Source of the DNA: Solwaraspora sp. WMMD791 | GTDB lineage: Bacteria; Actinomycetota; Actinomycetes; Mycobacteriales; Micromonosporaceae | DNA length: 64,000 nt | Direction of reading: 5' to 3' | NCBI RefSeq assembly: GCF_029581195.1 | Contig: NZ_CP120737.1 | Span: 3,573,001 to 3,637,000 of the forward strand | In this document: positions 12,100 to 44,733 of the stretch, one piece after another | How positions within the stretch are numbered: position 1 is the stretch's first letter | Layout: the number at the start of each line of letters is the position of its first letter | Notes under the pieces: generated by a model | Told to the model about the DNA's origin: nothing | Seen by the model: only the letters and a program-made list of their open reading frames with translations | Database searches by the model: none | Made by a program: the position numbers and the translations under genes

Positions 12100-13524
12100 A
12101 TGGTGACCTGGCGGGCGGCGGCGCTGCTCGGCGTCGGCGCGACGACCCTGCCCTGGTGGCCCGCCCCGTGGTGGGGCCTGGTGGTGATCACCGCGTCGGT
12201 GGCCGCCCTGACCGTGCTGGACGTGGCGTTGGCCGCCCCGCTGAGTCGGCTCGAACTGGGCCGCGACGGCGACCGGACCGTCTGGTTCGGCACGTCGGCG
12301 ACGGTGACGGTGCGGCTGGCCAACGGCTCCCGTCGGCGGTTGCGGGCGCAGGTCCGCGACACCTGGGTCCCGTCCGCTGGCGCCGTCGCGGACCCGGCCG
12401 GCGCCGCCGTCAACACCGGCCCGGACAACGCCGGCCCAGTTGGTGCCGACCCGGATGGCGCCGACCCGGACGACGGCGGCGTGACGGCCGCCGGCAGCGA
12501 CCGCAGCGGGCCGGTCTGGCGGGTACGGCTGGCCCCGGGTGCGGTCGCGGCGCTGCCCGCCGCGCTCACCCCGGCCCGGCACGGCGACCGGTCCGCCATC
12601 GAGGTGACCGTCCGCTCGTCCGGCCCGCTCGGGCTGGCCTTCCGGCAACGTCGCGGGCACCCGCCCACTCCGCAGTGGACCGTACGGGTGTTGCCGCGCT
12701 TCGACGCGCGCCGGCTGCTCGCCGAGAAACTGGCCCGGCTACGGGTCATCGACGGCATCCGGGCCACCCGGGGCCGCGGTCAGGGCACCGAGTTCGACAA
12801 CCTGCGGGAGTACGTCGTCGGCGACGACGTACGATCGATCGACTGGCGGGCCAGCGCCCGCCGGTCCGACGTCCTGGTCCGGACCTGGCGCCCGGAGCGG
12901 GACCGCCGGGTGATGTTCGTGCTGGACACCGGACGGACCTCGGCGGCCCTGATCGGTGACCAGCCCCGGCTCGACGTCGCGATCGACGCCGCGCTGCTGC
13001 TGGCGACCCTGGCGAACCGGGCCGGCGACCGGTTCGACCTGATGGCGGTGGACGCGAAGGTCCGGGCGGCGATCTGGGGCGTGAGCCGGCAGGCGCTGCT
13101 GCCCCGACTGGTCCAGACCCTGGCCGGGCTGCAACCGGCGCTGGTGGAGACGGACTACGAGCTGGTCGTCGGCGAGATTCTACGGCGGGAGTCCCGACGC
13201 TGCCTGGTGGTGCTCTGCACCGCGTTGGAGCCCGGCGCGCTCGGCGACGGGCTGCTGCCGGTGCTGCCCCGGCTGGCCGCCCGCCATCAGGTCGTGGTCG
13301 CCGCCATCGGGGATCCGACGTTGCCGGCGATGGTGGACGGACCGGTGCACACGGTCGCCGACGCCTACCTGGCCGCCGCGGCGACCCGGACCGTCACCGA
13401 GCGGGGCCGGGTGAGTGCGGTGCTGCGCCGGTACGGGGTGGCGGTGCTGGACGCCTCGGCACCGACCTTCGCCGGTCGCCTCGCCGACCTCTACCTTCAG
13501 CTGAAGCTGCTCGGCCGGCTCTGA
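12100..13524 (+). CDS. DUF58 domain protein
   Basis: A 474-residue protein. Two N-terminal hydrophobic stretches (about 5-45) are followed by a beta-rich region and the DUF58 core (about 225-400) with the diagnostic GTEFDNLREYVVGDDVRSID motif, then DWRASAR and VLVRTWRPERDRRVMFVLD. DUF58 proteins carry a VWA-like fold and pair with MoxR ATPases. The region around residues 90-130 is a low-complexity Asp/Gly/Pro insertion. The 3' end overlaps the convergent SpoIIM-like gene by 28 bp. Client proteins are unknown. Confidence 0.88.
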   Translation: MVTWRAAALLGVGATTLPWWPAPWWGLVVITASVAALTVLDVALAAPLSRLELGRDGDRTVWFGTSATVTVRLANGSRRRLRAQVRDTWVPSAGAVADPAGAAVNTGPDNAGPVGADPDGADPDDGGVTAAGSDRSGPVWRVRLAPGAVAALPAALTPARHGDRSAIEVTVRSSGPLGLAFRQRRGHPPTPQWTVRVLPRFDARRLLAEKLARLRVIDGIRATRGRGQGTEFDNLREYVVGDDVRSIDWRASARRSDVLVRTWRPERDRRVMFVLDTGRTSAALIGDQPRLDVAIDAALLLATLANRAGDRFDLMAVDAKVRAAIWGVSRQALLPRLVQTLAGLQPALVETDYELVVGEILRRESRRCLVVLCTALEPGALGDGLLPVLPRLAARHQVVVAAIGDPTLPAMVDGPVHTVADAYLAAAATRTVTERGRVSAVLRRYGVAVLDASAPTFAGRLADLYLQLKLLGRL

Positions 13525-34508: not shown

Positions 34509-34615
34509 CCTGACAGCCGCGACGCGGATCCGGCTCAGCCACTCGGGCGAATCCCTAGCCAGTGGCCCCTCCCACCCCCTCCCCTCGCCCGCCCCGCCCC
34601 GCCACCTCCCCCCAA

Positions 34616-34689
34616 GATCGCGACGATCTTGCACTCATCGTGAATTTTTGTCCACTTTGTTCCACAATAAGTGCAAGATCGTCGCGATC
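34616..34689 (-). repeat. 74-bp hairpin repeat, copy A
   Basis: Arms of about 23 bases starting GATCGCGACGATCTTGCACT pair across an A/T-rich asymmetric centre. Read on the minus strand it aligns with copies B and C, including the internal GTGGAACAAAGTGGA. It lies upstream of the AbiEi-like gene, in inverted orientation to copy B on the other side. Confidence 0.88.
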
Positions 34690-34796
34690 ATGCACAGTGC
34701 GGGCGGGCAGGAAGGTTATCCACAGGGGCCGCGTTCATCCACAGCTCGGCTGACGGCACCAGCCCCGACGTAGGGCGTCGCAACAAGGTGCCAGGC

Positions 34797-35663
34797 ATGG
34801 CTGACGCGATGCGTTACCGGGAACTGCGGAACTCCGGCATCAGCGAGGGCGAGATTCGGGGTCGGGTCGACCGCGGTCAACTCTGGCGCCCGTTCAACGA
34901 CACGTACCTTCCTGCGACGTCGGCGCGACAACTCCCGCACGCCCGACTCCGGGCGCTGCTGGTCCGGCTACCGCCGGCCGCGTTGATCTGTCGGCAGAGT
35001 GCCGCGCCGTTGCACGGCTTCGGTGACTTCGTCACCCGAACCACCGACCACAGGGTGCATGTGCTGCTACCGGCAGGCGTCCCTCGACCCCGGTTGCGCG
35101 GTGTGGTCGTCCACGAAACCGCCCTGCCGGCCGAGCCCTGTCTCGTCGACGGCGTGTGGTGCACGTCCCCGGCGCGTACCGCAGTCGACCTGGCACGAAC
35201 ATCCGGCCGGATCGACGCCCTGCCCGTCCTTGACGGCGCGCTGCGGGCCGGCCGATGCGATCTCGACACACTCGCCGCCGAGGTGGCGCTGCACTCCGGC
35301 CTGCCGGGCGTGGTCAAGCTACGCGAACTGCTCAAGGCGGCGGATGCGGGTGCCCAGTGCCGCCAGGAGAGTCAGCTACGGCTCATCGCCATTGATGGCG
35401 GGCTGCCCCGTCCGCAGACCCAGATCAAGATCCTCGATGCCTCGTTCATCACCCGGTACGTGATCGACCTCGGGTGGGAGGAGTCGCGGGTCGGCGCGGA
35501 GTACGACGGCCGGTCGCATCTCACCGCCGAGCGAGCCCAACATGATCGGGAGCGACACAACTGGCTCGCCGCGCAGGGCTGGCGGATGCGGTACTTCACC
35601 GCCGTCGACATCTATCGACGCCCACGACACGTGGTGGCCGTCCTACGTCAGGCCCTCGCTTGA
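34797..35663 (+). CDS. AbiEi-like/DUF559 (Vsr-fold) protein
   Basis: A 288-residue protein. The N-terminal winged-helix part (YRELRNSGISEGEIRGRVDRGQLW, then YLPAT) resembles AbiEi antitoxin/transcriptional regulator domains; a central region has CTSPARTAVDLAR. The C-terminal region has a DUF559/Vsr-type nuclease fold signature: YVIDLGWEESRVGAEYDGRSH, then HDRERHNWLAAQGWRMRYF. The Asp and Glu-x-Asp of a PD-(D/E)XK-like site are present. ATG 34797 was chosen; upstream frame 34671 begins in the hairpin. It is flanked by inverted hairpins A and B; its TGA lies on the first bases of copy B. A defence or regulatory role is inference. Confidence 0.7.
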   Translation: MADAMRYRELRNSGISEGEIRGRVDRGQLWRPFNDTYLPATSARQLPHARLRALLVRLPPAALICRQSAAPLHGFGDFVTRTTDHRVHVLLPAGVPRPRLRGVVVHETALPAEPCLVDGVWCTSPARTAVDLARTSGRIDALPVLDGALRAGRCDLDTLAAEVALHSGLPGVVKLRELLKAADAGAQCRQESQLRLIAIDGGLPRPQTQIKILDASFITRYVIDLGWEESRVGAEYDGRSHLTAERAQHDRERHNWLAAQGWRMRYFTAVDIYRRPRHVVAVLRQALA

Positions 35664-35735
35664 TCGCGACGATCTTGCACTTATCGTGGAACAAAGTGGA
35701 TATATCTTCTCGATGAGTGCAAGACCGTCGTGGTC
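35662..35735 (+). repeat. 74-bp hairpin repeat, copy B
   Basis: Same length and arms as copy A, in opposite orientation. The centre reads TTATCGTGGAACAAAGTGGA. The right arm has three changes (GACCGTCGTGGTC), and a diverged copy of its last 24 bases follows immediately (to about 35769). Its first two bases belong to the TGA of the AbiEi-like gene. Confidence 0.88.
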
Positions 35736-35778
35736 ATGGGCTGCGGGTTGCAAGAGCGTCGTGGTCATGGGCCGTGGA

Positions 35779-44632: not shown

Positions 44633-44643
44633 CCCAGCCCCAA

Positions 44644-44717
44644 GATCCCGACGATCTTGCACCTATCGTTGGACAAAGTGGACATATTTCCTCGATAACT
44701 GCAAGATCGTCGGGGAG
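44644..44717 (+). repeat. 74-bp hairpin repeat, copy C
   Basis: Same 74-bp structure as copies A and B, in + orientation. Arms are GATCCCGACGATCTTGCA and complement, the centre is ACCTATCGTTGGACAAAGTG. It fills the 101-bp gap between the aminotransferase stop and the FAD oxidase start. Confidence 0.87.
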
Positions 44718-44733
44718 CAGGGAGGGGTGGCGG

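Follow-up and report, generated by a model that had tools for sequence, protein, structure and literature searches.

The described systems closest to the locus analysed here differ in their enzymes. REPtrons (REPIN-RAYT systems) contain a gene bordered by palindromic repeats of a gene-specific type, which are also dispersed between genes at 3' ends, and the RAYT enzyme is a Y1 HUH transposase. In the REP of E. coli, a conserved mismatch in the middle of the stem is contacted by the REP enzyme, and the same source states that evidence for mobility of tnpA_REP itself is lacking (PMC8266576). Known REPs also serve as targets of insertion sequences (PMC1525189), and the CGTC class of repeats apparently has no dedicated transposase, according to PMC3733652. 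In AbiE type IV toxin-antitoxin systems, the antitoxin AbiEi binds pairs of 23-bp inverted repeats in its own promoter (PMC7319586). The Vsr-like EDxHD nucleases include homing nucleases (PMC3943268), a DUF559 protein of Caulobacter was termed Vsr-like (PMC12907096), and for giant conflict proteins, MTES_1575 was assigned to the Vsr-type nucleases (PMC3710099). Insertion sequences are gene-bearing units with inverted ends, and MITEs are short copies without a gene.

The locus lies in a stretch of 64,000 nucleotides from Solwaraspora sp. WMMD791 (contig NZ_CP120737.1, positions 3,573,001 to 3,637,000; in the following, the window) and consists of two hairpins enclosing a single gene (the cassette). 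As in REPtrons, the gene is bordered by palindromic repeats, such repeats are dispersed between genes at 3' ends and the repeat types are gene-specific. In contrast, the enzyme is a Vsr/DUF559-like nuclease, the GTAG tag is absent from the hairpin consensus (40 copies, read by eye) and the gene unit itself changes place. The cassette resembles a REPtron in its way of working, its nuclease being unrelated to the REPtron enzyme, yet it is not a member of this group, because the defining Y1 enzyme was searched for and not found in the genome of the window. With AbiE, the cassette shares an AbiEi-like part and inverted repeats of about the size of the AbiEi operator. This part is, however, fused to a nuclease, the repeats are two-sided and dispersed, and no AbiEii toxin (DUF1814) was found among five neighbouring proteins scanned, one of which had no Pfam match at all. 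Like Vsr/EDxHD nucleases, including the homing endonuclease I-Bth0305I, the protein has a putative nuclease core with conserved acidic residues and matches 3hrl and, weakly, 3r3p, but in the cases examined the gene lies between other genes with terminal repeats of its own and not in a target gene or intron. The inverted ends around a gene and the short gene-less copies are reminiscent of insertion sequences and MITEs, whereas domain profile searches with the cassette protein matched no transposase or recombinase known so far.

In the literature searched, to which most subscription journals did not belong, no paper was found that describes AbiEi-DUF559 genes as mobile or links them to dispersed hairpins, and the titles and abstract openings of the DUF559 literature contained nothing comparable. 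The cassette appears to be a type of actinobacterial mobile DNA that has not been described before.

Structure of the hairpin-gene-hairpin unit

Hairpin A, the upstream terminal repeat, occupies 34612 to 34693 on the plus strand, and the downstream repeat, hairpin B, 35658 to 35739 on the minus strand. Both comprise 82 nt, are 86.6% identical and have opposite canonical orientation. They form imperfect palindromes, in which a stem of at most 25 bp carries a loop of about 25 nt. Compared to 200 shuffled sequences, DNA folding of the two strands gave z-scores of -7.2 and -8.1 in the case of A and of -4.9 and -4.0 in the case of B. The initial annotation had described two equally long hairpins of 74 bp, which lie in opposite orientation and enclose exactly one gene with its stop codon on the second copy. 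This arrangement was confirmed, including the equal length, but 74 bp is the length of the stem-loop core of A (34616 to 34689) and the whole repeat has 82 bp. Immediately past B, an additional partial copy of a hairpin arm is present (35749 to 35777, plus strand), which forms a direct repeat (D5) with 90% identity to 35718-35746. A third copy in the window, of the same family, is a solo hairpin at 44640 to 44721 on the minus strand.

The sole gene of the cassette (34797 to 35663, plus strand) encodes 288 AA if started at ATG; the longest ORF begins with GTG at 34671. The stop codon TGA (35661-35663) is located inside hairpin B.

Location of the unit in related genomes

The genome of the window (G000) was compared with six congeners (G001 to G006). 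An orthologue of the cassette gene (82-90% identical) occurs in three of these seven genomes of the genus, namely G000, G003 and G006, and more distant members of the family are found in all seven, with three to six per genome. G006 contains the cassette at the same place as the window. In G003, the orthologous saccharopine-dehydrogenase site has one hairpin and the gene is absent; the cassette of this genome, again with inverted hairpins, is located about 34 kb away between the SpoIIM and DUF58 genes. At the same junction, neither hairpin nor gene was found in any of the six other genomes of the genus, and in the window the unoccupied site is an overlap of 28 bp between the ends of both genes (13497 to 13524). 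In G003, the hairpin provides the in-frame TGA which ends the SpoIIM gene. The flanks of the compared cassette sites have diverged, blurring exact edges and any target duplication.

These genome comparisons show that the position of the hairpin-gene-hairpin unit differs between relatives. A cassette moved by its terminal repeats had been suggested initially, with an empty site containing one clean hairpin as the support to be looked for. The orthologous site in G003 is of this kind, and the displaced unit of G003, set against six unoccupied sites, together with the differing flanks in a further genus (g85, see below) supports the idea. Neither of the outcomes named against it was observed: the gene and its hairpins do not occupy one locus in all relatives, and other relatives bounded by repeats exist. 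The cassette reading is correct in outline and bigger in extent than first proposed. Units with inverted ends at different sites, as known for insertion sequences, were found in the comparisons of G003 and of g85, and unoccupied sites in that of G003.

As an alternative, homing was considered, in which the nuclease would cut sites with a solo hairpin and repair would copy the gene into them via the hairpin homology; solo hairpins would be spread otherwise or be remnants of cassettes. A cassette in G000 and G006 versus one solo hairpin at the same site in G003 would fit, and so would the weak profile match to the mobile intron protein 3r3p (E 0.12) and the known homing nucleases of the Vsr-like EDxHD type (PMC3943268). 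Unoccupied sites, as expected of a homing endonuclease gene, are present, but the cassette sites of G003 and G000 differ. Against homing, the cassette site of G003 is free of hairpins in six congeners, and homing alone would leave unexplained the dispersed hairpins and those gene-matched repeats of which no copies were seen elsewhere. We consider this explanation unlikely.

Dispersal of the hairpins and co-occurrence with the gene

Using A with its flanks (121 bp) as BLAST query, B was recovered with an E-value of 3e-22, and 40 distinct places in the genome were obtained. A covariance model was built from the alignment of these 40 places, which match it by construction. At E ≤ 0.01 and with 150 candidates scored per genome, the model detected at least 108 hairpin places in G000, at least 115 in G006 and at least 118 in G003, thus in the three genomes with an orthologue of the gene. 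At the same threshold, four hairpins were found in G004, one each in G002 and G001 and none in G005. With more than 100 copies per genome, two neighbours such as A and B could occur by chance; therefore, their adjacency was rejected as evidence on its own and the case for a cassette rests on the other genomes.

The placement of 38 solo copies (excluding A and B) was determined relative to genes called with a simple ORF picker. Gaps between convergent genes contained 18, tandem gaps 17 and divergent gaps two of them, and one lies inside a predicted ORF, compared to 22 convergent, 44 tandem and 33 divergent among 99 comparison gaps in the same stretches. The distance to the stop codon was at most 18 bp for 26 of the 35 solo hairpins adjoining a gene end. 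The solo hairpin at 44640-44721 (G000 3617640) is common to G000, G003 and G006, while the G002 sequence aligned with this place has none; the same was found for the solo hairpin at G000 3679779, which is also present in G003 and G006 and missing in G002. For another one (G003 6633983-6634064), the aligned sequence of G006 has no hairpin. For three sites common to G000, G003 and G006, orthologous copies were 89% identical on average and copies from different sites 79%, whereby the orthology of the third site in G000 was taken from position and 98% identity. Due to this difference, most of the compared solo hairpins look old.

A position in the middle of the stem (alignment A1, columns 24 and 62) is unpaired in 20 of the 40 copies. 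Stem pairs changed on both sides were found for 8 of 25 pairs, a value reached in 102 of 500 shuffles, while the covariation score of the alignment was reached in 1 of 500. Because covariation is modest, no RNA function is claimed. A search for structured RNAs matched only plant- and animal-type microRNA models far under their gathering scores, which was taken as chance for a plain stem-loop, and this possibility was rejected. In G004, which is nearly free of hairpins, one well-conserved hairpin exists (C1, 4319117-4319198, L235; 94.6 bits). A solo hairpin in G004 and a paralogue of distant relation (36% over residues 111-284) lie 4.8 kb apart, and no cassette was recognised there.

Co-occurrence was analysed in a set of 61 relatives, and the gene was called present at E ≤ 1e-30, which was the case in 13. 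With stricter filters (E ≤ 1e-6), at least 75 hairpins each were counted in G000, G003 and G006, 28 in G014, two in G004, one each in G002 and G030, and none were found in 54 genomes. All four genomes with at least 28 hairpins are among the 13 gene-bearing ones (p = 0.0014), and the 48 gene-free genomes have at most two hairpins each. The hairpin family of the window is not present in nine of the 13 gene-bearing genomes, several of which have hairpins of other sequence beside the gene. Few independent lineages are behind this co-occurrence. In G014, two copies of the family gene (L057, 1372-2190; L063, 1456-2208) look damaged and 28 hairpins remain; in one of the copies, an uninterrupted frame of 272 AA lacks the section with E191 and R195, and the other has lost the nuclease core.

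Encoded protein and proposed mechanism

DUF559 was recognized in the 288-AA protein with 30.3 bits (Pfam cut-off 20.6). Its core, residues 216-286 (35442 to 35654, plus strand), contains D224, E235 and D250, with E191 just before it. The AbiEi profile of PADLOC matched residues 14-192 (34836 to 35372, plus strand), the putative DNA-binding part, with an E-value of 5e-10, and it matched 30 of 32 homologues. For the window protein, MTES_1575 and AbiEi_1 were under their Pfam cut-offs. In the alignment of the 32 homologues (A3, a chosen set from which the truncated copy L063 was left out), E191, R195, D224, E235, D250 and W262 are invariant, whereas H241 is not. A profile of the homologues matched 3hrl, a Vsr-like endonuclease, with an E-value of 6e-4; the weaker match mentioned above, 3r3p, we take to be the homing endonuclease I-Bth0305I. 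A single-sequence structure model of the window protein had a mean pLDDT of 42.5. The nuclease domain that the initial annotation had ascribed to the protein is supported at the level of sequence profiles, by the DUF559 match above cut-off and the profile matches to 3hrl and 3r3p; the AbiEi-like part was recognized by PADLOC, with Pfam AbiEi_1 under its cut-off. Its hint at defence found no support in the five neighbouring genes tested.

The window protein had no match in PHROGs. A viral origin was rejected, since no relative was found in viral contigs (16-row alignment, with one conserved stretch as its only pattern). The Y1 transposase (PF01797) was not found in G000, G003, G043 and five g85 genomes; one was found in G006 and 4-12 in each of four hairpin-poor congeners, and the control search was positive in 5 of 14 control genomes. 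By this search, a RAYT origin was not supported. The Y1-rich congeners (G001, G002, G004 and G005) are those without hairpin expansion, which is possibly due to chance.

The explanation that we hold to be probable is a mobile element, widespread in the actinobacterial class, in which a gene with AbiEi-like and Vsr/DUF559-like parts lies between inverted repeats recognized by its own protein. The cassette protein would drive the displacement of the unit. Its AbiEi-like part may bind the hairpin arms of 20-25 bp, comparable to AbiEi antitoxins on inverted repeats of 23 bp, i.e., about the arm length here (PMC7319586), its nuclease may nick or cut the ends of the unit and the target, and host repair or replication would join the unit in. 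We infer arm binding and cutting from the invariant residues, the profile matches to 3hrl and 3r3p and the size of the AbiEi operator. Solo hairpins may also be spread in trans by the cassette protein. As repeats bearing TGA can give a stop codon, insertion at the 3' ends of genes would be tolerable. In favour of this explanation count the displaced units in G003 and g85, the gain or loss of solo hairpins, the co-occurrence of hairpins with the gene, the matched and strictly inverted repeats and the second dispersed hairpin family in g85. Against it count the old appearance of the solo hairpins compared, the survey and congeneric loci lacking a matched pair, the repeats of G043 with no copies elsewhere in the sample, the nine gene-bearing genomes without this hairpin family, the few lineages behind the co-occurrence, and the many hairpins next to one gene match in G174 and to damaged genes in G014.

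For a further-reaching version of this explanation, the chances appear about even. It holds that class-wide self-moving elements exist in which a Vsr/DUF559-like nuclease with an antitoxin-derived DNA-binding part replaces every known transposase, that REPIN-like solo hairpins arose independently and that AbiEi-type operators became transposon ends. If the protein drives movement, bacteria would have arrived at the REPIN-RAYT arrangement a second time by unrelated means. A very common actinobacterial family (profile search of 246 class genomes, 160 positive at E ≤ 1e-30), known mainly as DUF559/AbiEi-like, would then power mobile elements as well as dispersed hairpins at gene ends. The explanation suggests a path from toxin-antitoxin operators to transposon ends and offers a testable mover for palindromic repeats without a known one.

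Relatives in the actinobacterial class

For a survey of the class, 40 loci were chosen non-randomly, one per genome, roughly in order among the matches listed and off contig edges; L173, truncated by the end of its contig, was excluded, leaving 39 usable loci. Neighbouring genes called by the simple ORF picker served as controls, and flank lengths varied slightly between the repeat tests (300 to 400 bp). A matched repeat in both flanks with a score of at least 30 (350-bp flanks) was present at 22 of 39 loci versus 4 of 267 neighbour genes (p = 3e-19), with 17 loci missing this score. It was reached by 12 of 18 loci inspected beforehand and by 10 of the other 21. Hairpins were found upstream at 18 of 39 loci (controls, 23 of 281), downstream at 10 (31 of 281) and on both sides at seven (6 of 281). 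Ten hairpin-free loci, picked for their high scores, had short inverted repeats spanning the gene, which in most cases form arrays with a unit length of 20-35 bp. Seven of the 39 loci contain the core GATCWTGCA; it is strictly inverted, with 20 plus and 0 minus occurrences upstream and 0 plus and 14 minus downstream; in 286 controls, it occurred once (plus) and never (minus) upstream, and four times (plus) and once (minus) downstream.

Nine paralogues in G043 were examined separately. A matched flank pair was found for seven of the nine, compared to 0 of 72 mixed pairs, and seven of nine repeats had no copy outside their own region in a 400-kb sample. Dispersal is therefore not the rule. By these comparisons of flanking sequence, the repeats are shown to be matched to their own gene. 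Within the genus of the window, 30 of the 33 family genes were tested; 26 have a downstream hairpin and six a matched pair at score 30, which the other 24 do not have. Three paralogues in G000 (L010, L011 and L012) each have a downstream hairpin of their own sequence and no matched upstream repeat, and the sampled DNA contains few copies of these hairpins at other places.

The repeats might also be regulatory, i.e., autoregulatory sites of an AbiEi-like repressor together with transcript ends, next to a gene that does not move itself. The binding of AbiEi antitoxins to inverted repeats in their own promoters (PMC7319586) is in line with such operators, and the 26 of 30 downstream hairpins at congeneric gene ends, as well as solo hairpins after stop codons, with terminators. 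Against both stand the strictly inverted, matched repeats on the two sides of the gene, the displaced unit in G003 and g85, and the more than 100 dispersed copies in orthologue-bearing congeners, so that we regard this as the least probable of the explanations considered.

The g85 genus has a different dispersed hairpin. Across 12 genomes, its arm was matched 4-125 times per genome and about equally often on either strand, and the reversed pattern not once. In G192, a g85 genome, the gene sits between two g85-type hairpins. Seven g85 genes (66-85% identical, some possibly paralogues) have no common flanking DNA in 20 of 21 pairs. For the remaining pair, G109 versus G210, both flanks match collinearly and enclose the cassette in reversed orientation.

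This inversion in place is the outcome expected of recombination between inverted repeats and would agree with passive movement, in which the unit is displaced by recombination between dispersed hairpins or by a transposase acting in trans, with the nuclease as a passenger, perhaps of repair or defence. Such genomes have other transposases, e.g. the integrase-core one between the arms of L233 described below. Yet recombination would hardly reach hairpin-free sites or spread copies of 80 bp, and neither G000 nor G003 gave a Y1 match. The match of repeats to their gene and the nuclease residues invariant in 32 homologues also speak against a passenger. Passive movement is therefore judged very unlikely, and movement by the cassette protein itself is preferred here, too.

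Two further hairpin pairs were considered as cassettes and rejected. L234 has two hairpins without a homologue between them. At L233, two arms lie 1.2 kb apart around a transposase-like protein instead of an AbiEi-DUF559 gene. This protein (1493-2702, in G192; integrase core and HTH), presumably IS30-like, has a hairpin arm on either side, which gives the impression of a hairpin invaded by an insertion sequence. In G174, 114 arm matches of the g85 family (L236-L247) were counted together with a single gene match close to the cut-off (E 2e-31); in this genome, the hairpins may have persisted longer than their gene.
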